64,000 nt of DNA from Pelotomaculum sp. (GTDB lineage: Bacteria; Bacillota; Desulfotomaculia; Desulfotomaculales; Pelotomaculaceae), in assembly GCA_018435055.1 (NCBI GenBank), contig JAHDOA010000039.1, forward strand, positions 1-64,000, in the 5' to 3' direction. A program made the position numbers and the translations under genes. Under the pieces are notes generated by a model. The model saw only the letters and a list, made by a program, of their open reading frames with translations. It made no database searches and was not told the DNA's origin. Shown here one piece after another: positions 3,101 through 48,311 of the stretch (its first letter is position 1; every line of letters starts with the position of its first letter).

Positions 3101-5599
3101 CGGGTGTTTCAATTCCTCATAGGAAGGCTAAAACCATATCTCCTGTGCTTACATTTGTAAACACCTTTTTTAGTTTCAATTCCTCATAGGAAGGCTAAAA
3201 CCTGTTGTGTCTCCTGAAAAAATCATCCAGATATCCTGTGTTTCAATTCCTCATAGGAAGGCTAAAACCAGGAGCCGGTTTAGCAGCCCCTGGCTGTCGT
3301 CATCCTGGTTTCAATTCCTCATAGGAAGGCTAAAACCTCTTTTTGAAGTTTTGCTAATCTCTTTTCAGATTTTCGTTTCAATTCCTCATAGGAAGGCTAA
3401 AACCATCCATACCCGCCATCAATGGCTATATCATAACCGGTTTCAATTCCTCATAGGAAGGCTAAAACCGCTTTAGTGCCGGTGACTGTTCCCGGGGTGC
3501 CTACTGGTTTCAATTCCTCATAGGAAGGCTAAAACCCAGCACGAGCCCGGCCATTAGGGCGCCCATACCAAGTTTCAATTCCTCATAGGAAGGCTAAAAC
3601 CCCCCGGTTGCTGCGAGAAGCCTGAATTGCCTTGTCAGGTTTCAATTCCTCATAGGAAGGCTAAAACCTTTGAGCTTATACACGCGTATGACAATGAACC
3701 TGTTGGTTTCAATTCCTCATAGGAAGGCTAAAACCGGCGGCTCAATGCAACTATGGAGCCCGCCCTCGGCGGTTTCAATTCCTCATAGGAAGGCTAAAAC
3801 CGCAAATTCGATTTGCGTCCCGCTTACCTGTCTGCCGGTTTCAATTCCTCATAGGAAGGCTAAAACCCCTTTTGACAAAAAAATATTCTGATTATTGTCG
3901 ATAGTTTCAATTCCTCATAGGAAGGCTAAAACCAATAGCTACCCACATTAAACAACCCGCGCTCCCAAAGTTTCAATTCCTCATAGGAAGGCTAAAACCG
4001 CATGGCAGGTGGCCAGACAGCGAGCGCTGGCCCGTGAGTTTCAATTCCTCATAGGAAGGCTAAAACCCATTATAGTTTACCGTACCGCTACTTCCATCTA
4101 TAGTTTCAATTCCTCATAGGAAGGCTAAAACCTGCTGACCAGTAGTTGTCCAATCATTCAGGCCGGAGTTTCAATTCCTCATAGGAAGGCTAAAACCTTT
4201 ATCTTGCCTGCCACTTTCTCACCACCTTTCAGGGTTTCAATTCCTCATAGGAAGGCTAAAACCGGTTGGAGTGCTGAAGGACCAGCAGGCCGAAGGAGAG
4301 TTTCAATTCCTCATAGGAAGGCTAAAACCTCCAGCTATCTGGCCATCCTGATTCAGCGCTCCGACCGGTTTCAATTCCTCATAGGAAGGCTAAAACCCAT
4401 CGCCTTTGAGGTGCCGGAGAAGATGACGGACGTGTGTTTCAATTCCTCATAGGAAGGCTAAAACCTGTGGATGGCCTCGCTGCTTCAATTGCTGCTGATG
4501 TTAGTTTCAATTCCTCATAGGAAGGCTAAAACCCAAAGATTAGGAAGCCCCAGGGGGCCAAAAAACTTGGTTTCAATTCCTCATAGGAAGGCTAAAACCC
4601 GACCACAGAAACAAAGGGCGAGCCCTGGAAGAAAATGTTTCAATTCCTCATAGGAAGGCTAAAACCTATAGATACAGTTGCGGCAGTATACCGGGAAGAG
4701 GAAGTTTCAATTCCTCATAGGAAGGCTAAAACCGAAGATAATATCGTTGGGGAAGCAAAAAATGACGGGCGTTTCAATTCCTCATAGGAAGGCTAAAACC
4801 CTTGCATCATCAGGATCAATTGTTGCAAATGATGGGTTTCAATTCCTCATAGGAAGGCTAAAACCACAGGTAGGTTGGGATGGCAATACAAGGACGGTGA
4901 CCAGTTTCAATTCCTCATAGGAAGGCTAAAACCGCAGCGCCTTGTGAAGTAGAAATTAGCAAAGTGGGGGTTTCAATTCCTCATAGGAAGGCTAAAACCG
5001 TATAACCTTTCATTACGGCCTGGATATCTAGTGTTGGTTTCAATTCCTCATAGGAAGGCTAAAACCATAACTGTAAGCCAGGTGGGCCGGCTTGATTTCC
5101 TCGTTTCAATTCCTCATAGGAAGGCTAAAACCGGGAAGTATATTTTAGTCTGCGGTGTGCGCTATGGCTGTTTCAATTCCTCATAGGAAGGCTAAAACCC
5201 TCTCGCTATTCCGATAGTTGAATAGACTCTCGCATGTTTCAATTCCTCATAGGAAGGCTAAAACCAGAAGTTCGGCGCCTGGGGGCTGTTTATTGCTATC
5301 CAGGTTTCAATTCCTCATAGGAAGGCTAAAACCTTACGTCGAACTCTACATTGAGAATTGGGTTGTCCTGTTTCAATTCCTCATAGGAAGGCTAAAACCT
5401 GGAATTCCAAAAAGTAATTGATATTAGTAGCCAGTTGTTTCAATTCCTCATAGGAAGGCTAAAACCATGTGTCTGGCGCAGAGCTGGAGCCGGTAGACAT
5501 AAGTTTCAATTCCTCATAGGAAGGCTAAAACCATCACCCGGAAGCCGGCCACAAAAGCAACCGGGCAAGGTTTCAATTCCTCATAGGAAGGCTAAAACC
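129..5599 (-). CRISPR. CRISPR array, 82 intact repeats plus a truncated one, 82 spacers
   Basis: A 30-nt repeat beginning GTTTCAATTCCTCATAGG and ending AGGCTAAAACC occurs 82 times, first at 172-201 and last at 5570-5599, at intervals of 65-68 nt (spacers mostly 35-38 nt). I saw no repeat variants. At 129-135 the last seven bases of a repeat (TAAAACC) remain, followed by a 36-nt spacer (136-171), so the left end is a cut-off array. Read on the minus strand the repeat ends in ATTGAAAC, the usual 5' crRNA handle of type I-B and III systems, and the cas genes lie to the right on the minus strand. Transcription is therefore inferred leftward, with the newest spacers near 5599. Apparent ORFs here that repeat VSIPHRKAKT or FQFLIGRLKP are translations of the repeat. 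Confidence 0.99.
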
Positions 5600-5780
5600 C
5601 CGTTAAAATGCTTAAAAAATAAGGCTTTTTTAATTGCCATAAGATTAATAATCCCGGTATTTGATTTTAGGTAAGTCTTATAATATCTAGTTTTCCGGCT
5701 ATTTTAATGTCGTCGATATAGGTTTAATTGTACGCTATCATAGGTGGACGACAATTTAGACGACTGTATAACATGGAAAA
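5600..5780 (-). promoter_or_regulatory. CRISPR leader region
   Basis: This AT-rich, non-coding stretch lies between the end of cas2 and the first repeat in the inferred direction of transcription, where the leader is expected. It contains two GACGAC copies 12 bp apart (5747-5752, 5759-5764) and an inverted GTCGTC (5709-5714), which could be adaptation-complex or host-factor sites. A convincing -35/-10 pair could not be fixed by eye. Leader identity rests on position and base composition. Confidence 0.65.
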
Positions 5781-7611: not shown

Positions 7612-9555
7612 CTATTTTACTCCAAGCGGCTCTGGCAACACTTTACGTTCCTTAAATACATCTATATCCATGTAGCGAGTTGTCTCCGAAGTCTTGCCCG
7701 GCCATTCCAACATTTTCAAGAGTGTCTTGATTCGTTTGGTATTTACAAGACATTCCGCATCACCCTTGTCATCCGGATGTATTTCTTCTAAAATGTGACA
7801 TTCAAAAGCATTGACAAAATAATTATTATTTTTAACAATTGTTTCCCCCTCAAACCACCGTCCGTTTTTTATTAAGCTTTTGTAACGGCTTTTACGATCC
7901 ATAAGATGCAGCACTGGCTCTATTTTTACTGAACCCATGCCAAGCGGCTTGCCCATGCCAAGCTTGTGGCGGTATTTATCACCGGGAAGGCTCAGTACCC
8001 AAAGTAAAGCCCCAAGTTCTTTGTCTTCCATATTTTCAAAATAAATGCAAAAGGAAAAGTTTACACCCGGTCTTACTGGTTTAATTAACGTGTATTTTTT
8101 TGGATTTTGTTTTATTTCGTCATCATTTTCCTTAATGTTATTTATTTGCACATCTCTTTTGTGCCAGTATAGCTTATGTCCGCGAATAATTGTTGAGGGA
8201 CTGGCATAATGGTTGAGCTTTCCCGGGTCTTCCGGTATTTGCTGGGTTAGATAATGCTGAAAGGCTGCAGGTTTGGGTGAGCTAAGCACTTTTGGTGTGA
8301 TAATAGGTTTGCTATCTAACCAAAGGCTGTCAGATACTGACTTAACACAAGCATCTGTAAAAAAGACTCTCCCAGCCCGGCTTTTACTGTTATCTTCTCC
8401 TTTTTTATGATCCATGCTATTCGCAAAGCCAAATATTGCCTCAGCCAGATCAATTTCGTTTTCTCTGCGCAGGTGATCAGGCGTATAATCATAAGGGCTT
8501 GCAGCTCGGTCCAGGTGATTTGGTATAGCAGGAATCCTGAAATTGGGACTGTGTCCAAAAAAGTAAACTGATTCATTCTTTAAGACGTAAAAAACAGGAC
8601 GCCCCTCCTTTAAGCAGCCGTATCTGCTATCAAAAGGTTCCTGTTTTTGAAAGGGAGTTAATGTAGATAAGTAATCTGTGACAACACTTTCGTTGATCTT
8701 TAAAGCTTTCTTCTTATTATCCTGTTCTAGAATAACAACATGAGTGGTTCTAGGTGATGTCTTTTCTCCTCCTGTTTCCGCCATATTTCCCGAACAGACG
8801 AGAATGCCGCAATATTTGGATCCAGGTTTAGCTGTCTCAAGGTCGAAAATTCTGGGTTTCCCTTTTACAATCTTGACATTGAAAGAAACCTCGTGGTATT
8901 GGGGCTTATAATTTTGCTTGTCTTCAAGGCTTATAAATCCTAGCAATGTTTTATTGGAAATATCCTTATCCTTTATTTCCAGGTAAGATTTTTTGTAATG
9001 CCGGTCATAATCGGATGGAGTCTTAGCCGGCTGAATATACCAGGAGTCGTTCTTTTTACGAAGATAACCGGCCTTCACATTAGAGGAATATTTGCCCATA
9101 ATTTTTCTATATTCTGCTGCCAGGGAGTCCTTTTCGGGGGATGTTGCAACTGCGCGAAAAGTTACCCGGTCTTTAATTAACCACTGCATTTTCCCATAAG
9201 CAGCGATCTCCACTAGTGATCGCACCATTCCCCGCAGGCTGCTGCCCGGTATAACCGGTTCATCTGGTCGGTCCGGCCTATGGTAGAATTGCGCCCGTTC
9301 TATTTTTTGCTCTTCTGATAATTGGGGAAATTCGTTATCGCCAAATCTACTAAAGAAGTCCTTGGTCATAGCCGACCGGATGTAAAGAGGCGTTTCTACG
9401 GTAAGGGTACATTTAATGTAACCGTTATTCCCTGTATACTCATCTTGTCCGGGTATATCATTAATGTCAACAGTTACTACTTTTTCCGGCAGGGGAACAA
9501 AATTATAAGGTGCGCAGGCAATGCGGTTTTTAGGGTTGTTGTGTTTCGGGTTCAC
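7612..9555 (-). CDS. TIGR03986-family RAMP protein (large Cas7-like subunit, III-D)
   Basis: A 647-residue RAMP protein of the TIGR03986 type. An N-terminal RRM-like strand precedes VIPGSSLRGM (residues 101-110), the Gly-rich signature of Cas7-like folds, and a C-terminal loop K-L-G-M-G-K-P-L-G-M-G (about 545-556) closes the second half. The long insertion between these landmarks makes it the probable counterpart of the insertion-bearing Cas7 subunit of III-D effectors. It should sit in the backbone of the Cas10 complex and contact crRNA or target RNA. Start GTG at 9555; the gene is last in the effector block, 23 nt after csx19. Family confident; exact position in the complex inferred. Confidence 0.85.
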   Translation of the reverse strand: MNPKHNNPKNRIACAPYNFVPLPEKVVTVDINDIPGQDEYTGNNGYIKCTLTVETPLYIRSAMTKDFFSRFGDNEFPQLSEEQKIERAQFYHRPDRPDEPVIPGSSLRGMVRSLVEIAAYGKMQWLIKDRVTFRAVATSPEKDSLAAEYRKIMGKYSSNVKAGYLRKKNDSWYIQPAKTPSDYDRHYKKSYLEIKDKDISNKTLLGFISLEDKQNYKPQYHEVSFNVKIVKGKPRIFDLETAKPGSKYCGILVCSGNMAETGGEKTSPRTTHVVILEQDNKKKALKINESVVTDYLSTLTPFQKQEPFDSRYGCLKEGRPVFYVLKNESVYFFGHSPNFRIPAIPNHLDRAASPYDYTPDHLRRENEIDLAEAIFGFANSMDHKKGEDNSKSRAGRVFFTDACVKSVSDSLWLDSKPIITPKVLSSPKPAAFQHYLTQQIPEDPGKLNHYASPSTIIRGHKLYWHKRDVQINNIKENDDEIKQNPKKYTLIKPVRPGVNFSFCIYFENMEDKELGALLWVLSLPGDKYRHKLGMGKPLGMGSVKIEPVLHLMDRKSRYKSLIKNGRWFEGETIVKNNNYFVNAFECHILEEIHPDDKGDAECLVNTKRIKTLLKMLEWPGKTSETTRYMDIDVFKERKVLPEPLGVK

Positions 9556-13222: not shown

Positions 13223-13887
13223 TTTAACACCTCCTGTTTAAATAGGAAGTAATATTTTGATGTAACGTCGTGCAGGTTTTCATCTAATAACCTGGCGCAA
13301 ACTTCGCCGCGCCCCCTGTTACGCCCGCTACCGACCCGCCTGAAAGCCATCACACAAGCAGCTAAAAGAGCCAACTCCATTTCTGCCAGTTTTGTTGAAA
13401 AAGACAAAGGCGCTTCGAAAACAGTGTTTCGCAGGATTACCCGCATTGCACGCAGTGTTTCATCCTGAGCAGCGGCAGTTTCTGCACTTATAGCTGTCTG
13501 CCAGCGGACAGTTGTGAGTGATTCAAGTACTTGTTGCCGGGTAATTTCATGCCGTTTAACACTAACCTCAACAGCCTTTCGCAAATTTAACGGCAGGCGC
13601 GCGTCCCCAACATGCATGATCGACTGATCTCGAATCGTGCTGCCGGGAACACCGAATAGTCTTTGCGCCGCCTTTGGGAAGGATGTGTCTTTTGTTTTTT
13701 GGATCTTGAGCGCAAAAAGGATATTAGCGCATTCCTCCTGTAATATACCTTTTAAAGATCGCCCTCCCAGATATGGCAACCCCCATTCGTCATGATATAT
13801 TTCATTATCAACTTTTTCGGTAGACCCTTCCCCCCGACCGAAGAGGGTATCACTTAACAACCAAAACTTCAGCCATATTTTCAACAT
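13210..13887 (-). CDS. cas7: Cas7/Csm3-like RAMP protein
   Basis: A single-module Cas7 of 225 residues. Residues 26-47 hold the Csm3-like pattern V-D-N-E-I-Y-H-D followed by L-G-G-R-S-L-K-G; Asp27 aligns with the aspartate that cleaves target RNA in Csm3. A Gly/Arg loop, GSGRNRGRGEV, lies near the C terminus. The ATG at 13887 overlaps the cas10 stop (ATGTTGA) and has GGAGGTG 7 nt upstream, so it is preferred to the longer frame. The gene lies directly between cas10 and csx10, the place where III-Dv loci carry the first module of a Cas7-5-11 fusion. Confidence 0.88.
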   Translation of the reverse strand: MLKIWLKFWLLSDTLFGRGEGSTEKVDNEIYHDEWGLPYLGGRSLKGILQEECANILFALKIQKTKDTSFPKAAQRLFGVPGSTIRDQSIMHVGDARLPLNLRKAVEVSVKRHEITRQQVLESLTTVRWQTAISAETAAAQDETLRAMRVILRNTVFEAPLSFSTKLAEMELALLAACVMAFRRVGSGRNRGRGEVCARLLDENLHDVTSKYYFLFKQEVLKCVP

Positions 13888-15506
13888 GGCGCATCCACCT
13901 CCAGCGGTACAAAGAATTCCAATGCTTCTAGCGCGTCGTAGCAGGTGCAACGTTTATCGATGTAGCCTGTATCTCTTGCCACATCGTTGCCAGGCACTAC
14001 GGGAAGTTGGGGAAGTTGGTATATCTTGCGGAACTGCTTTACTGTTTCTTCACCCCTCCGCAAAGCACTTTGCAGGTCCTTCAACTTATTGCGTCTTGAT
14101 GACCATTTTGAGGATCGGAATTCTTTTATCATAGAAGAAAAGAGAGCCCATGTGCGCCAATCGGCGCCTATTACTCTACCCAAGCGTATCGGTCGCATTA
14201 GTAAGAACCTGTCGTCAGGCATAAAATCCTGCTCACGTAAGACATCCAGTGTCCTTATCAATCCGCTCATCGCAAAATGCCAGTCAATTACTGATTCATT
14301 TATACCATCAGAAGATAGTTCTCTTATACGTTCTTTGGCTGATTTTGTTAATTCTTCTACTAGGGAATATGCTCGGGCAAACGGATAATGGGCCTTTACT
14401 ATTGCCACGCCTGCCCTGGCTGTATGAGGCAGTTCGTCGGACAGGGGACTTCCGGTAAACAAAGAGAGGTAATTTTGAGCCAGGGTAAGGCCCAGTCGCC
14501 CATTGCAGATAAAAGTAGCGTCATCACCCCCAAAAACGATGGGACGGAAGGGGAGGTAGTTATTTTTTAACTCAACAACACCAGCCACCTTTTTTACTCC
14601 ATTTTTGTCTTCTATGGAACGTATTAACTGGTCAACAGTGCCATTTAAAGCTTTTTCCGCTGCTTTATTGATGGATTGAGACAACTTTCGCATCTCCTCA
14701 ATATACCTGCGGTTATCTATGCAGCTAGAAAAGTTTTTGGCTATGGTGTTAACGCGCTTTCCCATGCCATTCCCGTCGGTATGCACTACAGCAATGTAAC
14801 TTGACTTGCCCTTGTCCAGGCCAAAATCATCAAGGAATACAGGGATTTCGTAAGAGCCTTTACTATTGTCAAGCGCTATAATACTTAAAAGGCGGTTGTG
14901 AGCGGCAGAAAACGCATCCAACTTAGCTACTACCTCTGCTGACACACGCTTTTTCTCGCTTTCACCCATGTCCCTTTCGCAAATTGCCGGCAGGCCCGTG
15001 AACTGACAATCTGCTGTAACACTAAGGCCGAGCAACGGAGTTGACACTGGTCGATTGGCCTTTTTTGCGTTTAACTCACCGATTAACTTTATTACGGTTT
15101 CTGAAAGGGAAGGATTATTATACCAGTCAAATTCCTTGTGTTTTATAATGACTTGCAGGCCGGGCGCATACAACAAAGCGTTGCGACTAAGCTTTTTAGC
15201 AAATTCTTTAGCGATGTCCAGCTTGCTAAAAATTATTACTGCATTCCCTCCGCCGGTGTAAACTAATTCCGATGTTAATCCGCCATGTTCAATTCCTTTT
15301 TCTTCAAAAATGAGTTTTAAAACCTTATTCTTATGTTTTAGAATAATATTAGTAGATCCTAACTCTTGTAACACCTCGTAAACCCAATCATGCGTTGCGC
15401 GGTAAACAAGTTCCGAGGCGCCTATGTTTTGCCTTAAATTGTTGCTGGCGTAAATATAGTTTTGAATGCCTGCCGTCTCTATAATCGTTAGCGTGAATTC
15501 GCCCAA
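13881..15506 (-). CDS. cas10: Cas10 (type III signature; cyclic oligoadenylate synthase, no HD domain)
   Basis: A 541-residue Cas10. The second Palm domain has F-G-G-D-D (GGDD at 326-329), the motif that makes cyclic oligoadenylates, and the first Palm has V-H-T-D-G-N-G-M-G-K (241-250). The N terminus begins directly with a Palm-like strand; there is no HD nuclease, so DNA cleavage by this subunit is not expected. The TTG at 15506 is chosen because AAGGGGG precedes it by a proper distance and lies 19 nt past the upstream gene; the longer frame to 15623 would overlap that gene by 98 nt. The two CARF proteins upstream in the operon fit cOA production. Confidence 0.93.
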   Translation of the reverse strand: MGEFTLTIIETAGIQNYIYASNNLRQNIGASELVYRATHDWVYEVLQELGSTNIILKHKNKVLKLIFEEKGIEHGGLTSELVYTGGGNAVIIFSKLDIAKEFAKKLSRNALLYAPGLQVIIKHKEFDWYNNPSLSETVIKLIGELNAKKANRPVSTPLLGLSVTADCQFTGLPAICERDMGESEKKRVSAEVVAKLDAFSAAHNRLLSIIALDNSKGSYEIPVFLDDFGLDKGKSSYIAVVHTDGNGMGKRVNTIAKNFSSCIDNRRYIEEMRKLSQSINKAAEKALNGTVDQLIRSIEDKNGVKKVAGVVELKNNYLPFRPIVFGGDDATFICNGRLGLTLAQNYLSLFTGSPLSDELPHTARAGVAIVKAHYPFARAYSLVEELTKSAKERIRELSSDGINESVIDWHFAMSGLIRTLDVLREQDFMPDDRFLLMRPIRLGRVIGADWRTWALFSSMIKEFRSSKWSSRRNKLKDLQSALRRGEETVKQFRKIYQLPQLPVVPGNDVARDTGYIDKRCTCYDALEALEFFVPLEVDAPC

Positions 15507-15525
15507 GTTGGCCGCCCCCTTACAT

Positions 15526-16683
15526 TTAAGTACAAATCCAATCCTGCAGGTAATCCTGCAAGGTATGCAAGTGTTCTTCACCGAAAACGCGTATCTTTCC
15601 AGGCGCATCCCATGACTGCTCAACTTCCTGCTGAAGAGAATCAGGGTCGCTATAATTGCAGATAAGACCTACTCGCGCTTCACCACCCCCTACCTGCCTG
15701 GCCCGCACGAAAACTTCGAAGAGGTGTTCTTTGCATTTTGATTTTTCATCCGACACAATACATGAAATAGCAAAAAGCCGGTATCCCAAAATTAAGGCTA
15801 AATCCAATTCAAAATCACTTTTTTGTTTTGAGTTTTTTAAGCATTTCAGGTTCATGCCGTAATCGCTAACATTGTTAAGTTTGTTTTGGTTGATTAACCG
15901 AATAATAGTATTCAGTACATAGCTTTCTAACCATTTGCCCTGAAACCAGGTTTGACAGGAGCAAAGACCTTTTTCATAATATCCTATTGCACGGGCTAAA
16001 TTACTTGCGTTGAATTCTTTTCTGTTACATATTTGTTTCATAACAAGAACTACACCCTCTAAACCATCTGTTGCCGGAGGCAAATTCTTACATTGATCTT
16101 TGTTTGTCCACTTTTTCCAGGTATTCAGGGCTTTCTTGTCTTTATAAAGGTTTGCTATGGCCTCACACAATTCGGGATGCTTGGGAACTCTAGTGAATTC
16201 ATCTTCATTAATACTTAGACCGTGGAGACCCAGTATTTCTGCAATTGTTATTCTAATCTTATCATTTGCCGGCACATCGTCGGAATAGCCATCAGCTTTG
16301 CTAATTTTCATTTTCAAGCTACGGTCATCAAGATAACTGTATATTGCATTTGTATTGACTTCTTTTATTGCCTGATAGGCATGGACAGCCATTGTCTTTC
16401 TGCCACCGGTATAATTAAGGCCAACACCTTCCTTTTCACGGGCATAGGGAGATATTGCCTGGTAAATTGAGTGAGGGTCAGCCTCATCCACCTGGATCTT
16501 GTTGTACCGTTTAGCATCAGGTAATTTCAGTATATTAATCAGTTTATCTGCTATATGCCCGGTGTTTCTACTGTGCACAAAATAAAAATGCGTATCAGGA
16601 CCGGCCAACATTTTCGCTGCAACATAGTTGGGCAGGGGATTGGTCCCGATTAACATAAACAAGTGTTCACTTACATAAGACAT
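15526..16683 (-). CDS. Card1/Can2-like CARF protein with PD-(D/E)XK-type C terminus
   Basis: A 385-residue cOA-responsive effector. The CARF half has a Rossmann strand with a G-T-N-P-L-P loop (13-18), H-S-R-N-T-G (37-42) and L-N-Y-T-G-G-R-K-T-M (89-98), the usual nucleotide-binding signature. The C-terminal half resembles a PD-(D/E)XK nuclease: W-L-E (Glu253), F-E-L-D (Asp294), then Y-R-L-F-A-I-S-C (301-308) and V-R-A-R-Q-V-G-G-G-E-A-R (326-337). Where many homologues have Glu-x-Lys after the strand, this one has Ser-Cys-Ile. Cyclic oligoadenylate from Cas10 would activate it. Start ATG with GGTGGTGA upstream; it precedes cas10 by 19 nt. CARF fold firm; nuclease activity uncertain. Confidence 0.75.
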   Translation of the reverse strand: MSYVSEHLFMLIGTNPLPNYVAAKMLAGPDTHFYFVHSRNTGHIADKLINILKLPDAKRYNKIQVDEADPHSIYQAISPYAREKEGVGLNYTGGRKTMAVHAYQAIKEVNTNAIYSYLDDRSLKMKISKADGYSDDVPANDKIRITIAEILGLHGLSINEDEFTRVPKHPELCEAIANLYKDKKALNTWKKWTNKDQCKNLPPATDGLEGVVLVMKQICNRKEFNASNLARAIGYYEKGLCSCQTWFQGKWLESYVLNTIIRLINQNKLNNVSDYGMNLKCLKNSKQKSDFELDLALILGYRLFAISCIVSDEKSKCKEHLFEVFVRARQVGGGEARVGLICNYSDPDSLQQEVEQSWDAPGKIRVFGEEHLHTLQDYLQDWICT

Positions 16684-16816: not shown

Positions 16817-18736
16817 TCATTCTTCGTCCAGCCAGATAAGTTCCCCCTTCACATATGGGTTGTCCCTCTGTGCTTGCGATGTGCGACGGTCCAATAGGGC
16901 TACGCACCGCACCGGGCGGCCTACTTGCTTGGTGCGCGCGGCGATTTGCTGCACAATGTACTGCATAGCCGTGGTGCCGCCGGTGATGTTGACGACCACT
17001 TGACCGCTATGCAGGATGACCGGCAACGCAACCGCCGCTAACGACTCAGCTTCGTTGAAGCCGCTGTGCGGGTCCTGCATGTGCCGGATTGTGCTTTTCC
17101 CCGACCAGGTGGCCTTTTGGGCGATCTCTTCATATGAACCCGCCGCGCTTGCAGAAGTTATAACAAAGAGTTGGTGCGGCTGGATGTGGTGTAAGGCTGA
17201 ATAAAGCAGTCCTTTGGACAAGCCCAGGGGACTTACCAGCAAGGTGCTACGGCCATTCTCTTCAAGCACCATCTTTTCCCGGACAGTTCCTGCCCGTTTT
17301 TCCGGGTGCGCTTTTGCCTGACTTACCGGCCCGGCGGGGGGAGCACCTTCCGGGTTATCCGGTATGGCAGGACCAAGTCTCCATTTTTCTCTGTCGCCCA
17401 GGGAGCCTTTTATTTCCCGCCAGCGCTCTTTGATTTCATTTATTTTCACCTGGTTTAACAGGGCAATGTCTTCTTTAAAACCGTGGTGGTGCAAGTCATT
17501 GCGCCTCTTGGCAATATCTTTCCAATGCCCTGTCAGCCAGCCCTGGCCTTCAGTTAAATGATTCCGTAGAGCCTTTTTACTGTTATCATCTATCCGCTTG
17601 ACCATTGCTCCCAACTGCTGCTCTATTTTTTTCCTGCCTTCCTCACCCTTATAGGAAAGCCACTGTTTGCCGTCAACTTGCTTCTTGCCCCCTGACTTTT
17701 CCTTATGGAACATAGCTGCCGACACGATCCATTCCCGAATGAGGCCAAGAGCATAGTTTATATAACCTTGCTCCAGGTAGGTGTCTATGATTGCAGTCTG
17801 CCGCATGAGTTCCGCTTCGTCCAGTGGCAGCGCGGTTTTACCTTGCCTCCAATTAGATAAGTGCAGGGTAAAGGGCTTGACAAACGAGTTGATCTTACCG
17901 AATAATTCATCCGGCAGGGGCATCTTGTCCCTTAGATGTTCAGGCGCCGGTTCTGCCAGCTTGTTCAGCAGTTCCGCCGCTTCAAGACCGAACTCCACCG
18001 GCAAGGCCTGGAGATAAGCGGCAGCCGCTGCGTCAAAGGATTCCCGTAGCGTTTTAAGCGTTGAATAGGGGCGGCAGGCAGGCCCGGTCAAGCCTTCCGG
18101 TCGATTTTCAAAAGGAACCAGTAGTTCGGTGATGTGGCCGGCCTGGCCGGTTTCAAGAAAGGTGCGGGTGGCGTAAAACCATTCGACCATGTCAAGGATA
18201 AGCGACAGGTCAACAATAGGTTTTTCATCTCCATCTGCTTCAAACATACCGTAATAAACTGCCTCGACCTGCACGTTGTGCAGCGCTTTTAGAAACATAG
18301 CTGCAGTAAAAAACAAGAAGGGGTAGGTACGGAACCCGTGAGTAAGGTCCAAGGTGAGGCGGCAGCCCGGCGGCACGGCGTTCAGGATCGAGTGCAATAT
18401 TTGCCACAACTCGTCCGTGGTTTTGCCATCGGGGATGGAAAGGGGACTTACTGTGATTTGTGTGCCTGTTCCAACCCTGGTCCCGCCGCCTATGTCGGCT
18501 ACGGTACTCGTATTAATGAGCTCCTTCACCTGGCCAAACTGTTCCTCCAGCGTTTTGGTGCAGAGTACAATTACTTCCTGGGGCAGGCACTCCGGTTGCA
18601 ATAATTTTATCAGAGCCAGGGGTGACTGGTTTGCCCTAGCCGTCTTACCGTATAGAGAATAGACCGCATCTCTGGGACTAGGGCTCAAAGAAGTGATGAG
18701 GATGTGTTTTGTGGCATCATTATCTTCATATAGCAC
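16817..18736 (-). CDS. csx1: Csx1-type CARF-HEPN ribonuclease with extra C-terminal CARF-like domain
   Basis: GTG at 18736 is chosen because GAGGGGGG lies 9 nt upstream; this gives 639 residues. Residues 10-190 are a TM1812/Csx1-type CARF domain with LDLTHGFRTYPF (129-140). Residues about 230-430 are helical HEPN, with R-R-N-D-L-H-H-H-G at 411-419; Arg412 and His417 fit the R-x4-6-H ribonuclease motif. A Pro/Ala-rich linker (about 455-485) leads to a second Rossmann module (498-639) with a Pro-Leu-Gly-Leu-Ser loop and V-N-I-T-G-G-T-T-A-M-Q-Y (582-593), the CARF signature again. Ordinary Csx1 proteins are about 400-500 residues and lack this part. It is first in the III-D operon. Activity as a cOA-activated RNase is inferred. 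Confidence 0.82.
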   Translation of the reverse strand: MLYEDNDATKHILITSLSPSPRDAVYSLYGKTARANQSPLALIKLLQPECLPQEVIVLCTKTLEEQFGQVKELINTSTVADIGGGTRVGTGTQITVSPLSIPDGKTTDELWQILHSILNAVPPGCRLTLDLTHGFRTYPFLFFTAAMFLKALHNVQVEAVYYGMFEADGDEKPIVDLSLILDMVEWFYATRTFLETGQAGHITELLVPFENRPEGLTGPACRPYSTLKTLRESFDAAAAAYLQALPVEFGLEAAELLNKLAEPAPEHLRDKMPLPDELFGKINSFVKPFTLHLSNWRQGKTALPLDEAELMRQTAIIDTYLEQGYINYALGLIREWIVSAAMFHKEKSGGKKQVDGKQWLSYKGEEGRKKIEQQLGAMVKRIDDNSKKALRNHLTEGQGWLTGHWKDIAKRRNDLHHHGFKEDIALLNQVKINEIKERWREIKGSLGDREKWRLGPAIPDNPEGAPPAGPVSQAKAHPEKRAGTVREKMVLEENGRSTLLVSPLGLSKGLLYSALHHIQPHQLFVITSASAAGSYEEIAQKATWSGKSTIRHMQDPHSGFNEAESLAAVALPVILHSGQVVVNITGGTTAMQYIVQQIAARTKQVGRPVRCVALLDRRTSQAQRDNPYVKGELIWLDEE

Positions 18737-18993: not shown

Positions 18994-21342
18994 TTATAAT
19001 ATTGCAACGATTCCCTCAACTAATAAGCCGCAATCGCTTGAATAATATCCATCACGCAGCAGCCAATGCCCTAAATATTCATTGGCGATTTGCTGTGGTT
19101 GGAAACGAGGATGGGCATAAACACTTACAGACACCATGGCTATACGACCGGCAAGTTTTCTCCAGGCTTCCCTGCGTTTCCACCGGTCAGCAATACTATT
19201 AGCATTGGCCATTTCTTCCTGTAGCGAAGGGTCTTCCTCAATTACTAAAAAAGTATGTTGTCTATGCTCTTTTCCGCGTAACAACTCGTGTACTGGCAGG
19301 TCGTCCTGCCAGCGGGCAAACCTTTTTAGATGAACTTTGCCGGTATCCTTTTTGTCAAGCAGTTGGTTAAAATAGCGGTTGGATAAATCCAACACGTTTT
19401 CTTCCGGCATTTCCGGTATATCTTTTATTAATTCCCTGGTTACCTGCAGATGGACAGGATCATAAATCATCTCGGAATACCGGTTTCCTTCTTCGTCTGT
19501 CAAGTCGATTATTTCGACCTGACAGCGTTCTTTTTTCCCTTCACGGTTACATCTTCCGGCAATCTGAATCAGGTTATCCAGCGGTGCAAAGTCACGGATA
19601 ACCAGATCCATGTCGATATTGACCCCGGCTTCTATACACTGCGTCGAAACAACAATACCTGGTTGGCCTTCTTTGATTTTTTCTATCGTTTTTAAACGGT
19701 CAAGTGGCGTAACATCAGCACTGATAAAATAGACCGGAAGATCGTGCTCCGCCTTAATCAAATCAACCAATACATCTCTTACTATCCTGGCGGATTTTCT
19801 TGTGTTGAGGGTAATTAGGACACGTCTCTTTTCTTTGAGCCATACGGGTAGTCTTTTTTCCAGCTCTTCGCTGAAACTTTCAATACTTAGTTCATCTTTG
19901 AGTCTGAAAAGCAACTTATACCTCTTGAATTGGGAAAAATACTTTTCGTAAGCGGGCAGGAGCGGAATTGCGTTTTTCACAAATGGCGGCAGTGTTGCCG
20001 ACATTAATAAAATCTTGCTGTTGCCAGTTGCGGCAAGGCTATTAAGGATGCTTTCCAGGGGTTGCCACAACTTACAGGGCAGAGATTGCACCTCGTCCAT
20101 AACTATTAGGGCGTCACACAAGTTATGAAAACGCATCTGGTATTTGGCCCTCGGGTCCATCAGGCTCATCAAAAACTGGTCGTAAGTGGTGATTATTAAC
20201 TCACTGCGCCAGGTATCCACAAAAAACGGTTCATCATCTTTTTCTACCCATGCGGCATAATGACGGTCTGCAAGGGAGTGACTGGTTAATAACCAGGCGC
20301 CGTCAGCTTCATAACCACCGGTTTGCAGAAGCTTCATATAATCTTTTATGGTTTGATCAATAATTGACAGAAAAGGTAATACAACTATTATTCTCGGAGG
20401 CGCTTCCGGCAAAGAGGCAATAATTTCTCTCAGACTGAAAGCCCAGGTGGCCGCCAGGAGGGTTTTGCCGCTCCCGGTGGGTGCGGTCAGGCTGTAAACC
20501 CTGTCGGTCTTGTTTTGTTCAATAACTCTTAACACGTCGTCCCTGACCTGTAGCCTTAAGCGGTTTGTTTTTGTATCAGGCGGCTCCCCGATATACCTGT
20601 CGATCCACTGTACTTGCCAGTGCCGCGTTTCTCTCTTTAAATAGTGCGCAGGCTCGGAAACTGCCAGGAATGCTTTGTCGGCTTCAAGAAATATGGAAAA
20701 AACAAGTTGTGCTCTCAGTCTAAAATCAACTGCTTCCCTTTCCGGTAAAGATAATAGTGTAAAGATAATAGTGTTGGTTAGAAACCTCTTCAGCTTTGTG
20801 AGGAGTTTTGTAAAATCATCATTTGCAGTTAACTGTCTAAGTATTTGCAGATCGATTCCAGTTTCTGCAGTGATACCGGGATGGTTGACCATGTTTAGCT
20901 GCTTTTTGATTAGTCTGGCTTTTGCGCCGCCGGCAAAATTATCGATATCCCATTCCGGGCAGCTAACACCGTCAAACTGTCTTTCTGGTACTGTTGGCAG
21001 CCTTCCGTGATGGCCCTTTGCAGCCGCGGCCAGGATAAAAGTCTCTAGTTCCTCCCAGTTTTCGTCAATAGCTTTGGCAACGGTAAAGATCAGCGACAAG
21101 GTAGTGTGGGATTTTTCATCTCTGGCACCCCTGTAGTCAGCAGGGTTTATTATATATTCCTGAAAAGCAGTTGTGCCTTTGCCTAGATCGTGCAGTAAAA
21201 CAAGCTTTTGTAGTGTATTGACAATTGACGGCGTAATTGTCTCCGGTGAATGCCAGTTCCCAATGCCATAGATCGCCTTGTTGATCTGTTCGATATGCTC
21301 ACTCAAGAAAAGATGCGGGTGTGAATTAATCCTTTTGGTCAT
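18994..21342 (-). CDS. cas3: CRISPR-associated helicase-nuclease Cas3 (type I-B)
   Basis: A 782-residue Cas3 with an N-terminal HD nuclease fused to an SF2 helicase. HD landmarks are L-L-H-D-L-G-K-G (His51-Asp52) and K-G-H-H-G (His111-His112). Helicase landmarks are A-P-T-G-S-G-K-T (287-294), M-D-E-V-Q (415-419), S-A-T-L-P, and a late Q-I-A-G-R-C-N-R-E-G. Cas3 is recruited by a target-bound Cascade and degrades the non-target strand. The start overlaps the end of cas5 by 4 nt (ATGA). It is the last gene of the I-B interference block; the III-D operon follows on the same strand. All catalytic motifs look intact. Confidence 0.95.
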   Translation of the reverse strand: MTKRINSHPHLFLSEHIEQINKAIYGIGNWHSPETITPSIVNTLQKLVLLHDLGKGTTAFQEYIINPADYRGARDEKSHTTLSLIFTVAKAIDENWEELETFILAAAAKGHHGRLPTVPERQFDGVSCPEWDIDNFAGGAKARLIKKQLNMVNHPGITAETGIDLQILRQLTANDDFTKLLTKLKRFLTNTIIFTLLSLPEREAVDFRLRAQLVFSIFLEADKAFLAVSEPAHYLKRETRHWQVQWIDRYIGEPPDTKTNRLRLQVRDDVLRVIEQNKTDRVYSLTAPTGSGKTLLAATWAFSLREIIASLPEAPPRIIVVLPFLSIIDQTIKDYMKLLQTGGYEADGAWLLTSHSLADRHYAAWVEKDDEPFFVDTWRSELIITTYDQFLMSLMDPRAKYQMRFHNLCDALIVMDEVQSLPCKLWQPLESILNSLAATGNSKILLMSATLPPFVKNAIPLLPAYEKYFSQFKRYKLLFRLKDELSIESFSEELEKRLPVWLKEKRRVLITLNTRKSARIVRDVLVDLIKAEHDLPVYFISADVTPLDRLKTIEKIKEGQPGIVVSTQCIEAGVNIDMDLVIRDFAPLDNLIQIAGRCNREGKKERCQVEIIDLTDEEGNRYSEMIYDPVHLQVTRELIKDIPEMPEENVLDLSNRYFNQLLDKKDTGKVHLKRFARWQDDLPVHELLRGKEHRQHTFLVIEEDPSLQEEMANANSIADRWKRREAWRKLAGRIAMVSVSVYAHPRFQPQQIANEYLGHWLLRDGYYSSDCGLLVEGIVAIL

Positions 21343-22067
21343 AGAAGCATCAAAACCCTTTCCTTACCCAGGTATGCTTCGGTTGTTTTTAAAGGTATTG
21401 GCCGGGCGTCTTTTTCCGCGAAGTAATTGGCGTGTTTAAATACTCTTTTGGGTGTTACTGTTCTGGGCATGCGCAGGAGATTGATGGCGAGTTTTTCAAT
21501 GTAGCACTTTTTAATATCGAGCTGAACATAATCCTGCCTGACTGCTGTTTCAACCGGGTAGGTTCCCTCCGGTAATTTTCTGGCTGCGATGGAATCAATA
21601 AATTCAATATCGGCCATCATTTCCGACAAACCCAGGCTCGGCTGGAAATACCACTTCCGCATTTTAAGGCGATTTTCCAGTTCGGTATGATATGGTTCAG
21701 GCAAGCCGGCCCATACTTCGTAAGATGGATTGAATAACCACTCCTGGGTAATCAATGTTGCTTTTTCCGGCTTGGTATTTTTTTCTTGTTTTTGAGACCT
21801 TTTAACAGCGCAGGAAAGCAATTCAGGGGGATCTTTCCTCAGCTTGGCCTTATGCCAGTGAGTAACAGGGATTTTGCCGGATAAAGCAACATGCATCGGT
21901 TTAAGCAATTCCTGGGGCTGATCTTTGGGAAGACCAAGCACGGCTCCCATGAGCCCGATAATCACTGTCCTCGGTGGTATAGGGTAGCTTAAGGCGCTCG
22001 CTCCTGCATCTGCCCGGAGAAAATGGCCGAAACGCCCATGTAAGCGAAAATTTATTAGTTTTATCAT
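21339..22067 (-). CDS. cas5: Cascade subunit Cas5 (type I-B)
   Basis: A 242-residue Cas5. It opens with K-L-I-N-F-R-L-H-G-R-F-G-H-F and then S-Y-P-I-P-P-R-T-V-I-I-G-L-M-G-A-V-L-G (about 27-45), the typical Cas5 Gly-rich signature. It caps the crRNA 5' handle in the I-B Cascade. The gene sits between csh2 (6 nt upstream) and cas3 (4-nt overlap) in the standard cas8-cas7-cas5-cas3 order. No catalytic His triad suggesting Cas6-type activity is evident, and a separate Cas6 is present in this locus. Confidence 0.92.
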   Translation of the reverse strand: MIKLINFRLHGRFGHFLRADAGASALSYPIPPRTVIIGLMGAVLGLPKDQPQELLKPMHVALSGKIPVTHWHKAKLRKDPPELLSCAVKRSQKQEKNTKPEKATLITQEWLFNPSYEVWAGLPEPYHTELENRLKMRKWYFQPSLGLSEMMADIEFIDSIAARKLPEGTYPVETAVRQDYVQLDIKKCYIEKLAINLLRMPRTVTPKRVFKHANYFAEKDARPIPLKTTEAYLGKERVLMLL

Positions 22068-22073
22068 AGAATA

Positions 22074-23060
22074 TCAGCAACCTTCAGGTAAACATTCGAT
22101 ATCCAGCGCTTCCCATTCGGCCGGTAACTTGGATACAATTTGAATATCCTTGGAAACAGCGCAACGGACTGTTTGAATGCGCTTTGCCTGATCAGAAATC
22201 CTGGCTAGCAGCTTATCAATATCCACATTGAAATCCGCCGGTGAGGACCATGCCTGTTCCTCTTTATCACCAGTGGCAACTAATTTCACATAGTCATGCA
22301 GCCTGCCGAACTGAAACTCTTCGCCAGGGTTATATTCTATGCTGATTAATAAGTGAGGTATCTGTCCTACTTTTGTTCTCGTATTAGCTGCTGACCGGAC
22401 ACCGTGCCAGAGGGATTTTAAAAACAGCTCATAATCAGCGTCAGTCATTTTGGATATCCGGGCCGAGTGCTCGTTCGCCACCCCTGAAAATCCGATCAAA
22501 GCGTAGCGAAGGCCGAAATAAGTGGTAAAAGTCCCTTGTCCTTTGGATTGATCACTGGCAAACACTGAAGTTCCGTGAATATCTACACTTTCAGCCCGAT
22601 GGAGTACTTCACCCATGTTGATCTGAACGGGACCCGTCATTGTCTTGGGTTCCGTTTTGGGCTCCCAGTCCACTTCTTTCCCGTCTTTATTTTTAATTTT
22701 TCCTGTTTTAAAAGCAAAAGAACTGCCGAAAAGCCGGGCATCGATAAAAGCATCCAGGAGAATATCAACCAACTCTTTGCCTTCGGCCTTTTCTTTGTCG
22801 ATAGCATTCAGGTAATGAATCACCCGGCCGGTCAGGTTGGTTGTTCTGCCCTCAATGTTGTCAACCAGTATATCTTGTCCTCTAAATTTTAAAAAGTCTC
22901 TGGCAAAACGCTTTAAACGCACATCGGTAACATAATTTGTTCCGTCCGGCAGCACTCTTGGGCGGTTTTCGTCGGGATCACCATTGGGATTGCCCATTTT
23001 AATATCATACAGAAATAGAAATTCTCTTCTCCCGGATAATGTTTTCACTGCGCTTTCCAT
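22074..23060 (-). CDS. cas7: Cascade backbone Cas7 (Csh2, type I-B)
   Basis: A 328-residue Csh2. Diagnostic features are F-L-F-L-Y-D-I-K-M-G-N-P-N-G-D-P-D (about 14-30), R-L-K-R-F-A-R-D-F-L, and G-T-S-V-F-A-S-D-Q in the middle; N-P-N-G-D-P is typical of DevR/Csh2 Cas7 proteins. Multiple copies coat the crRNA spacer. The ATG overlaps the cas8b stop (TAATG), so the two are translationally coupled. Csh2 together with Csh1 places the interference module in subtype I-B. Confidence 0.95.
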   Translation of the reverse strand: MESAVKTLSGRREFLFLYDIKMGNPNGDPDENRPRVLPDGTNYVTDVRLKRFARDFLKFRGQDILVDNIEGRTTNLTGRVIHYLNAIDKEKAEGKELVDILLDAFIDARLFGSSFAFKTGKIKNKDGKEVDWEPKTEPKTMTGPVQINMGEVLHRAESVDIHGTSVFASDQSKGQGTFTTYFGLRYALIGFSGVANEHSARISKMTDADYELFLKSLWHGVRSAANTRTKVGQIPHLLISIEYNPGEEFQFGRLHDYVKLVATGDKEEQAWSSPADFNVDIDKLLARISDQAKRIQTVRCAVSKDIQIVSKLPAEWEALDIECLPEGC

Positions 23061-25099
23061 TAATTCTCACTCCCTTTTTTTTCTTTTGCAGGCAGTATGT
23101 CTGCCGTCATTGATTGACCCAATAAAAGATAATAGTTTGTTTGGACATCACTTAGTTTGATGTTGTCGCCCAATATTAGACCTACCCTACCTATTTCAGC
23201 AACAAGTCTTCTAACCTCTTGATTCTTTTCAGTATCATAAGCGAGTAGTTTTTCCCTGACTTTAATGTACAGTTCCGGCAGATCTTTGCCTTGCAAGGTA
23301 AGGCGCTTTAACCAACTTAGAGCATTTGCGCTTATATTAACTCCTCTTGCCGCCTGCACCTGCAGTAATTTCCCATAAAGCACGCCGAGCATAAAGGCAA
23401 AGGCCTTAGCCAGTGTATCTATTCCGCTAGCCGGGCCAAAATATTTCTTCAACTCATCCATGTCAGGTTCAAAATATTCTTTTTCCATTTCCATAACCCC
23501 CACTTTTTTAAAATAGTGCAGCCACCAGTTCAGATATCTGATCCAGCCTGCCGCCGTAAGGAAAGGTCCTTTTTTGCTTAAACCTTCATACAAAAGCCCT
23601 TTATGACCATCCTTTTGTTCTATTGCGTTGAGCCAGTACCAGCGTGCTGTTGCCAGGACTTCTTCCCAAAAGCGTTCTAAAGGGATTTTGTTTTGAAGGT
23701 ACACACAGGCGGCAATTTGACGTTTTACCTGGAAGAGCTGCCTGCTCTTGTTTGCGCCTTCAGCCTTTTTACCGCCGGGCCGGTGAAAAAGTGAACGCAG
23801 AGCTTTTAGGGAAAGATCCGGGGCAAAGTTCACCGGTTTCTGTTGTAACTTCACTCTTGGAAACAAAGGGTGCTTCCAGTCCAGCGATTTGCCGTTCATC
23901 CCGGACAATTCTTTTAGCCTGCTGGGTATTACGTTGGTGATCATGCCTGTGACGTTGCCAATTTCCTGTCCAACATCTGCCCAGATTATGATTAGATTTA
24001 AAATTGTTTCCTTGTCTTTCAACAATTCGAGCAGGTTGTCTTCGTCAAACTCAACATCTGTAGGTATATTTTCAATGTAACCCTTTGCTTCCATTATTAC
24101 TTCAAGGCGCGATTCTGCCGGCAAACCGGGTATAAAACAAGGGATGATAAGGGCATTATCACCCGCGATTCTTGCGCCGAAGGGCTGACGGTCCTTTTTA
24201 GGCCCATCTTTTTTTAAAACATGGAATTTATATATATAGAGAAGATCCGCGCAAGATCCGCATAAGGCATACTTTTTCCAGGCTTGGAAAGTGTCAATGC
24301 CTGGAAAAGCGCCGGCTCTGTCCACGTTATTAAGATTAATACCGGCTCCCTTAAGGGCATTGGGGAATATGGCAACCTCAAAGGCATTGCACAAGCAACA
24401 GCTTCCATTTTTCTTTGCAGGCGCCTGTAACGTTGCATATCGCTCACCGGCTAATTTTTCAGTTAGCAGATAATCAACGTACATGGCATTTTCTCCCGGC
24501 AATCGACCTTTGCTATCTCTTACTGTTAAAAACACCGTGCCGCTTTGCGGGCCAATTTTGTCGACTGCGCAGGCCAGCATATTTGCATAACCGCTTTCCT
24601 GCCAGTTTATTATGTCGCCACCGACTGTTTTGAGGTTGGCACAGTTAAGGATAGCAATGATTTCTTGAAAATAGGGGGACCAGGGCTTGTCCTCCCGGGC
24701 TATCTCGGAAAAATATTTCATTGTTGTAACAAGTATTTTTTCAGATGGTCCGCCTCCTTTATTGCGATCATATGACCTTTTAATAACGGGACCGACCTGG
24801 GGGCTTTGCGGGCCGGTCGGCCGCATAAAAGGCAGTTTGTTAGGGGTGCATCCATTAGTGGCATTGTCGGTATCGTTTAAAATGTCTTGTACTGTCAATT
24901 GCACTAAGCCGTCTCCGCATTTTTCCAAAATATAAACTGTGGTAATCTTGCCGCTGTCCTCTACTAAATAGGGAAATAACTTGCCGGGGGAATTTTTACG
25001 AAGCTCTTGATACCATTTTTCGTTTTCAGGCGGCGGGGCTTTACCTATTATTTTTTCCGCCAGGTAGTCTAGGGCCATTGTACGCATCGCCTCAATCAA
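23060..25099 (-). CDS. cas8b: Cascade large subunit Cas8b (Csh1/TM1802 family)
   Basis: A 679-residue TM1802/Csh1-type large subunit. It has a central zinc-ribbon-like pair of cysteine motifs (C-C-L-C and, about 40 residues on, C-G-S-C), as in other Cas8b proteins. Cas8b recognises the PAM and recruits Cas3. Start TTG at 25099 with AAAGGATG upstream. It is the first gene of the I-B block csh1-csh2-cas5-cas3. Subtype assignment depends on this gene and csh2; sequence identity in this family is low, so the call rests on length, Cys motifs and gene order as well. Confidence 0.9.
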   Translation of the reverse strand: MIEAMRTMALDYLAEKIIGKAPPPENEKWYQELRKNSPGKLFPYLVEDSGKITTVYILEKCGDGLVQLTVQDILNDTDNATNGCTPNKLPFMRPTGPQSPQVGPVIKRSYDRNKGGGPSEKILVTTMKYFSEIAREDKPWSPYFQEIIAILNCANLKTVGGDIINWQESGYANMLACAVDKIGPQSGTVFLTVRDSKGRLPGENAMYVDYLLTEKLAGERYATLQAPAKKNGSCCLCNAFEVAIFPNALKGAGINLNNVDRAGAFPGIDTFQAWKKYALCGSCADLLYIYKFHVLKKDGPKKDRQPFGARIAGDNALIIPCFIPGLPAESRLEVIMEAKGYIENIPTDVEFDEDNLLELLKDKETILNLIIIWADVGQEIGNVTGMITNVIPSRLKELSGMNGKSLDWKHPLFPRVKLQQKPVNFAPDLSLKALRSLFHRPGGKKAEGANKSRQLFQVKRQIAACVYLQNKIPLERFWEEVLATARWYWLNAIEQKDGHKGLLYEGLSKKGPFLTAAGWIRYLNWWLHYFKKVGVMEMEKEYFEPDMDELKKYFGPASGIDTLAKAFAFMLGVLYGKLLQVQAARGVNISANALSWLKRLTLQGKDLPELYIKVREKLLAYDTEKNQEVRRLVAEIGRVGLILGDNIKLSDVQTNYYLLLGQSMTADILPAKEKKGSEN

Positions 25100-42491: not shown

Positions 42492-43052
42492 CTACGCCTT
42501 GTCTTTTTCAGCCTTAGCGGGAGAACCAGGTCCGGCGCTGGTTGCGTCACCTTTGGCGAGGTTGGCGCCGGCGCTTAGTTCCGGGAAAATGATGGGCGCG
42601 CCGGGACCCATGCCCATACCGGGACCCATGCCCATGCCGGGACCCATGCCCATGCCAGGACCCATGCCCATACCGGGACCGGGCAGCATACCCGGGCCGC
42701 CAAAGGTGTCAGACCCGATATTTATGCCGGGGCTGCTTCCTATTGAGGGGCCCACGCCGATACCGGGGCCCGTAGAAGGGCAGGTCGGGCCAGCGGGACA
42801 GGGAGCGGGAGGACAGGGAGCGGGAATGCCGGGCTGCCAGCCGGTTCCAGGGGAACCCGGCATGCATGTGTCACAGCTGCAACAGTGAACATTGCTCCAA
42901 AATTTCGCCTCGCCGGTTTCCTCATCGATCAGGCGCAGGACCATCACCCTGGCCGCTTCATTTGGAGCCAGCATGGCCAACCGGGCCAGGTGACAGATCT
43001 GCTGCAATTCCGAGTTTATTATTTGGCTGACTTTATCACACCATGTTGACAT
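42492..43052 (-). CDS. Gly-Pro-Met-repeat protein, probable spore-surface protein
   Basis: A 186-residue protein. Residues 1-60 form an ordinary helical domain ending in a cysteine cluster (C-C-S-C-D-T-C). Then comes a Pro/Gly/Cys-rich stretch (P-A-P-C-P-P-A-P-C-P) and, at about 120-155, tandem hexapeptides of the type G-M-G-M-G-P (four near-identical copies), followed by a charged Ala/Lys tail. Such low-complexity Gly/Met repeats with cysteines are common in coat and exosporium proteins. AAGGAGG precedes the ATG. The upstream neighbour and sigma-K-like promoter support a spore role, but no family is recognised. Confidence 0.6.
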   Translation of the reverse strand: MSTWCDKVSQIINSELQQICHLARLAMLAPNEAARVMVLRLIDEETGEAKFWSNVHCCSCDTCMPGSPGTGWQPGIPAPCPPAPCPAGPTCPSTGPGIGVGPSIGSSPGINIGSDTFGGPGMLPGPGMGMGPGMGMGPGMGMGPGMGMGPGAPIIFPELSAGANLAKGDATSAGPGSPAKAEKDKA

Positions 43053-46634: not shown

Positions 46635-46650
46635 GTTGGGGGGGTAAAAA

Positions 46651-48164
<1,514 letters not shown>

Positions 48165-48177
48165 ATGGTAGCGGATA

Positions 48178-48244
48178 GGGGGACAACTGTGTTCCTCTGG
48201 GGTCGAGATATGTCCCCAATTGGAATGGCGGGCTAAAGCCCGCC
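48178..48244. repeat. Two palindromes between ilvC and the second ilvB
   Basis: GGGGACA (48179-48185) pairs with TGTCCCC (48211-48217), and a perfect hairpin GGCGGGC-TAAA-GCCCGCC lies at 48227-48244. The first resembles REP-type elements common in this group. There is no T-run, so termination is unlikely. The 147-nt gap otherwise holds only the ribosome site GGGGGGAG of the next gene. Confidence 0.45.
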
Positions 48245-48311
48245 CATAGCGGCATGGGGATAACAGCGGTTTGTCTCCGGGTGACCGGCATCTGAATGGG
48301 GGGAGTTTGTT

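Follow-up and report, generated by a model that had tools for sequence, protein, structure and literature searches.

In Marinitoga Csx1-Crn2, a CARF-HEPN ribonuclease is joined to a ring nuclease; the wild-type protein cuts RNA fast and then stops, and the ring-nuclease mutant goes on cutting (PMC7293037). Crn1, a ring nuclease with a CARF fold, has the sequence G-T-S in motif I and G-R-K in motif II; the motif-I serine is catalytic and the basic residues of motif II matter for cleavage or binding, and the motif-I sequence is absent from Can2 and Card1 (PMC10018336). Can2 itself lacks ring nuclease activity (PMC9704534). Both Csx20 and Csx3 act as ring nucleases (PMC12409355; PMC7371418). A paper of 2026 puts the number of extrinsic ring-nuclease families at eight (PMC13148439). 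In a survey of loci with cA4-type effectors an associated ring nuclease was present in 39 %, and its authors expect more families (PMC12409355). Adjacency and fusion to effectors had pointed to Crn4, which was later confirmed (PMC12830947). The window analysed here, a stretch of 64,000 nucleotides of Pelotomaculum sp., encodes a CARF-HEPN-CARF effector. This is predicted, with a probability of roughly 0.6, to be a self-limiting ribonuclease activated by cyclic oligoadenylate (cOA), whose C-terminal domain (the tail) binds and cuts cOA.

The effector gene and its locus

The effector is encoded on the minus strand at 16817–18736 by an ORF of 639 aa with a GTG start at 18736; a start at the in-frame TTG of 18817, also possible, would lengthen it to 666 codons. 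It matched the PADLOC CARF2--CARF_HEPN_CARF profiles PDLC01840 (E 1e-193, in two stretches) and PDLC01839 (E 1.7e-96, residues 79–663) across both CARF domains and the HEPN domain, and the tail alone matched these profiles at E 2.8e-49; the matches of effector and tail are far beyond chance. The architecture, which the original prediction put forward as a candidate for an undescribed one, is therefore already catalogued, since three such models (PDLC01838–01840) exist with the same three-part order and a full-length profile match. The models are entries in a catalogue; the literature searched yielded no experimental work on a CARF-HEPN-CARF protein, earlier predictions for the clade may exist, and the tail itself is apparently unstudied, as far as found.

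The N-terminal sensor (18122–18715, minus strand, about residues 8–205) is a Csx1-type CARF domain, as had been proposed: TIGR02221 (E 1.9e-25) and the DxTHG model TIGR02549 both matched above their cut-offs, and DLTHG was found at residues 130–134. Among the leading structural matches of the head was the CARF-HTH portion of a Marinitoga Csx1-Crn2 (8y75, Z 11.1, 24 % identity). A helical region and the HEPN ribonuclease domain follow at 17372–18121 (minus strand, about residues 206–455), as delimited by PADLOC profile coverage. The HEPN active-site motif is intact, R412-N-D-L-H-H417 (17486–17503, minus strand) lying exactly where it had been placed, and R-N-x3-H was kept in 15 of 15 fused homologues. 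The effector thus combines the two features of Csx1, a CARF domain with DxTHG and a HEPN R-x4-6-H motif (R412/H417). The expected Pro/Ala-rich linker (17270–17371, minus strand, about residues 456–489) was disordered in the structure model, with pLDDT below 50 at residues 454–495 of the full-length model, and leads into the C-terminal CARF domain, the candidate ring nuclease (16823–17269, minus strand, residues 490–638), which was defined with AlphaFold2, VIA-align, Foldseek and 20 homologous tails. That Csx1 normally stops after HEPN is only partly true, as fusions to a C-terminal CARF, Csx20, Csx16 or Csx3 have been catalogued.

All genes named around the effector lie on the minus strand. 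Downstream is a Can2/Card1-like CARF-PDDEXK effector of 385 aa (15526–16683), which matched the Pfam Card1 domains PF09002 and PF23400 above cut-off and the PADLOC model CARF4--CARF_PDDEXK at E 1.3e-107. It is followed by a type III-D Cas10 (13881–15623; PADLOC Cas10d, E 2.5e-133), whose cyclase motif GGDD is intact as read in the translation, and then by a Csm3-like Cas7, Csx10, a two-part Cas7, Csx19 and a 647-aa protein. Visual inspection suggested Cas4, Cas1 and Cas2 for three genes farther downstream and type I-B for a gene set upstream of the effector (18994–25099). Both the type III-D and the type I-B gene sets are close to a CRISPR array (about 150–5600), the main repeat family of which has 81 copies; some spacer ends in the array occur twice, for example TCAGTGCCATTCCCACGGA at 288 and 421. 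Elsewhere in the window, a region about the size of a gene is present in two diverged copies at 45010–49592, with a constant spacing of 3336 bases and 73–86 % identity in pieces, and tandem 18-base repeats (about GCCGGGACCCATGCCCAT) occupy 42582–42689.

Fold and conserved residues of the C-terminal domain

The tail took a Rossmann/CARF fold in two AlphaFold2 runs and its top structural matches were CARF domains, which bears out the prediction of a second CARF-like domain. The models were built on two to three sequences and their confidence is modest: the mean pLDDT was 65 and pTM 0.62 for the tail (two sequences), and the mean pLDDT was 54 for the full-length model, in which the head was mostly poor and the tail formed strand-helix repeats with pLDDT 55–79 per ten-residue block. 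The best match was Can2 (8q3y, Z 13.6 over 127 residues, 2.7 Å), followed by Csm6, Cam1, Card1, Can1 and Csa3 and, lower, by Crn1 (8htw, Z 9.8); with the tail of the full-length model, Crn1 8htw reached Z 11.7. A six-stranded Rossmann fold matching solved CARF domains, with Z up to 13.6, places the tail in the CARF superfamily.

Residue conservation was assessed in 21 tails (15 fused and six stand-alone), in all of which G505, S507, G509, S528, D555 and the GGTT of residues 586–589 were invariant. On the minus strand, motif I (PLGLSKG, residues 503–509, including G505, S507 and G509) is encoded at 17210–17230, the DPHSGFNE motif that begins with D555 (residues 555–562) at 17051–17074 and the motif-II position (NITGGTTAMQ, residues 583–592, with no Lys or Arg) at 16961–16990. 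A DRR sequence after strand 5 (residues 616–618, 16883–16891) was present in 19–20 of 20 tails. Motif I, D555, the motif-II position (583–589) and DRR each come just after the C-terminal end of a strand (strands 1, 3, 4 and 5), and to judge from this topology the four motifs would sit on the usual Rossmann ligand face.

The NITGGTTAM signature that had been singled out is present at residues 583–591, but it is there that the tail departs from the Crn1 type. Motif I reads G-x-S in 21 of 21 tails, the middle residue being L in the window and variable among tails, whereas the G-R-K of Crn1 motif II is missing, with Thr in place of Lys/Arg in 21 of 21. The tail thus appears from its sequence to have the motif-I serine by which ring nucleases differ from sensors, without the basic residue of motif II. 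As judged by this substitution, its chemistry cannot be that of Crn1. The Crn1 profile TIGR02619 did not match the tail at E up to 1, and motif II and this profile together rule out membership of Crn1. Membership of Csx20, Csx15, Csx16 or Csx3 is likewise ruled out, the respective profiles (NF040559, NF040560, TIGR02620 and TIGR02579) giving no match at E up to 1 to the tail and four stand-alone homologues. Eight Csx20 sequences from the surveyed genomes, inspected by eye, have GDFGA near the equivalent of motif II and no Lys or Arg there; since Csx20 is active as a ring nuclease (PMC12409355), not all ring nucleases depend on motif II.

Distribution of the tail and of known ring nucleases

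The tail was present in 12 of 398 genomes drawn from the phylum (a second draw returned the same genomes) and in 13 of 113 from the class, three genomes being common to both sets. It was fused to CARF-HEPN in 15 loci. New in this analysis is a second form of the tail, a stand-alone gene of about 120–190 aa that occurs in at least five genera, in or beside type III loci with CARF-HEPN, Can2-like or CARF-RelE effectors. Genomes G017, G048, G087, G166 (cut by a contig end), G471 and G485 carry this form; the tail copy of G122 is interrupted, and those of G414 and G450 are remnants.

The arrangement of the stand-alone genes varied. One (L071, in a type III-B locus) follows a CARF2-HEPN gene directly, another (L082) comes immediately after a Can2-like gene, and a third (L033:5860–6312) lies one gene upstream of CARF2-HEPN and Cas10; L035 has the stand-alone tail with CARF7-DUF2103 and CARF9-HEPN, and L034 holds one as well. 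A DUF1848-type gene (PADLOC RTasDUF1848, E about 1e-50) adjoins the stand-alone tail at L033:6341–7291 and L035:6748–7677. In L070, a type III-B locus from the same family as the window, the stand-alone tail (8201–8767) accompanies CARF-RelE, the part of the locus that was read containing no Csx1, and is 75–80 % identical to the tail of the window, which marks a recent switch between the fused and the separate state. Trees of the tails and of the heads required at least two changes between the fused and the unfused state.

Pfam and NCBIfam contain no family for the stand-alone tail, and its strong PADLOC matches came solely from the fusion models, none being specific to it. No viral or plasmid copies were found among viral contigs, phages, plasmids and PHROGs at the sensitivities used, and use of such copies as anti-CRISPRs was rejected. 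A different elaboration of Csx1 was encountered in G263, where an 833-aa protein (L010:130–2631, minus strand) consists of two complete CARF2-HEPN units in tandem (CARF-HEPN-CARF-HEPN); its layout resembles that of Csm6-2, but it belongs to the Csx1 (CARF2) clade, and there is a Csx15 gene not more than about 2 kb away.

The tail and two known ring-nuclease families were mutually exclusive. Csx20 was found in 17 of 36 genomes that have the same type of Csx1 but no tail, compared with none of 22 that have a tail or a remnant, and Csx15 in 14 of the 36 tail-less genomes; among the genomes with a tail or remnant, G450 alone has Csx15, and it is one of those with a remnant. Taken together, Csx20 or Csx15 occurred in 0 of 20 tail genomes (the interrupted G122 copy included) compared with 30 of 36 tail-less ones (Fisher p 3e-10), and outside the class of the window in 0 of 9 compared with 30 of 36 (p 6e-6); these are genome-level counts within one phylum, and the p values ignore relatedness. 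Csx16 was detected in none of 58 genomes, and none of the profiles that the genome searches covered (Csx20, Csx15, Csx16, Csx3 and the Crn1 type) matched anywhere in the genome of the window. Matches to TIGR02619 in tail genomes were discounted as Crn1, being in frames of more than 300 aa like those of CARF effectors and not in short stand-alone ones.

Replacement was seen among relatives. The Csx1 of G291 (L032:1342–2981) falls within the clade that bears the tail (support 100/99) but is itself tail-less, and the next gene downstream is csx15. G414 combines its broken tail with a Csx1 that has a Csx3-like C-terminus (a Csx1-Csx3 fusion), and in the class-level control this Csx1 was the sole intact tail-less member of the clade. 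In related Csx1 proteins the same C-terminal fusion point is taken by Csx20 (L024) or Csx3 (L017).

Proposed function and comparison with known systems

The exclusion of Csx20 and Csx15, the replacement by Csx15 or Csx3 and the occurrence of Csx20 and Csx3 at the same fusion point make it most likely that the tail removes cOA, as a ring nuclease or, less likely, as a sponge. A CARF domain that has no effector part and is common to different effectors also fits a messenger-removing protein. In favour, too, are the motif-I Gly-x-Ser of all 21 tails, the position of the conserved motifs on the presumed ligand face and the lack of another ring nuclease, of the families searched, in the genome of the window; arguments of this kind, from adjacency and fusion, are those that led to Crn4 (PMC12830947). 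Under the proposed mechanism, the neighbouring Cas10 would make cOA once the type III-D complex finds its target RNA, and binding of cOA by the N-terminal CARF would activate the HEPN ribonuclease. The same cOA would be bound and cut by the C-terminal CARF, and the fall in its level would turn off both the effector, limiting it in time as in Marinitoga Csx1-Crn2, and the adjoining Can2-like nuclease; because Can2 itself lacks ring nuclease activity, the tail may serve to reset this neighbour. We infer cleavage of cOA by the tail, as opposed to binding alone, cA4 as the ring, and a DRR pair that takes over the phosphate work usual for the motif-II lysine.

A tail that only binds cOA, sequestering the messenger and so setting the threshold for HEPN activation, is an improbable alternative, but one to which several observations lend themselves. 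The motif-II Lys/Arg is missing from every tail, there are Csx15 proteins that act as cA4 sponges without being enzymes (PMC13148439), and the stand-alone genes and the exclusion of Csx20 and Csx15 are as compatible with a sponge as with a nuclease. The invariant motif-I serine and the almost invariant DRR nevertheless suggest selection beyond binding, and a sponge fused 1:1 to its effector can buffer messenger only in an amount equimolar to itself.

The original prediction had offered an off-switch or a second sensor, and of these the off-switch is best supported, by the stand-alone relatives, the exclusion and the replacement. A second sensor or allosteric site, which would bind cOA, perhaps of another ring size, and tune HEPN activity or oligomerization, is likewise improbable, slightly more so than the sponge. 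The top structural matches of the tail are sensor CARFs (Can2, Cam1, Csm6) and not Crn1, and the second CARF of Can1, an effector without ring nuclease activity (PMC9704534), has a similar GTTAM. Such a role does not explain separate tail genes that have no effector domain, nor would replacement by Csx15 or Csx3 in relatives and exclusion of Csx20 be expected from it.

It is very unlikely that the tail is a structural dimerization module or a decaying, ligand-less remnant. CARF domains are dimeric and the tails of G414 and G450 have indeed decayed, but invariant residues lie at the presumed ligand face and the tail is on average the most conserved of the three domains of the fused proteins (mean identity over 105 pairs 39 %, against 35 % for the first CARF and 27 % for HEPN). 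Misassembly or a frameshift joining two separate genes was rejected, even though the halves exist elsewhere as separate neighbours (L071), because the survey for the same three-part order found it in one frame at 14 loci in 13 other genomes and the PADLOC profiles span both parts.

The preferred reading, removal of cOA by the tail, can be extended to its relatives. The chances are about even that the tail and its stand-alone relatives form a further, unrecognized CARF-subtype family of ring nucleases, which would cut cOA with DRR and without the motif-II Lys/Arg, would have moved more than once between fused and separate forms and would also work alone beside Can2-like and CARF-RelE effectors. 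Such a family would have stayed hidden because the survey of PMC12409355 limited its candidates to 250 aa and the family databases searched name only the fusion. If real, it would account for some of the loci with cA4-type effectors in the phylum of the window that seem to have no ring nuclease, and its motifs would bear on whether a CARF domain needs the motif-II lysine to cut cOA.

Among known systems, Marinitoga Csx1-Crn2 (PMC7293037; PDB 8y6z, 8y7g) is like the effector in joining a CARF-HEPN ribonuclease to a C-terminal cOA-removing domain (predicted in the present case), but its ring nuclease has a DUF1874 fold with a catalytic histidine, whereas the tail is a CARF. The Csx1-Csx20 and Csx1-Csx3 fusions (PDLC01843 and PDLC01844) share the Csx1 clade and the fusion point, while Csx20 and Csx3 are other families, none of whose profiles the tail matches. 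Crn1 (Sso2081, Sis0455) has in common with the tail the CARF fold and the motif-I Gly-x-Ser; the tail differs in having DRR instead of the motif-II Arg/Lys and in lacking a TIGR02619 match. The CARF domains of Can2/Card1 and Can1 are the closest folds, and GTTAM is shared with the second CARF of Can1, but these are sensors fused to PD-D/ExK nucleases and, in Can2/Card1, are devoid of motif I (PMC10018336).
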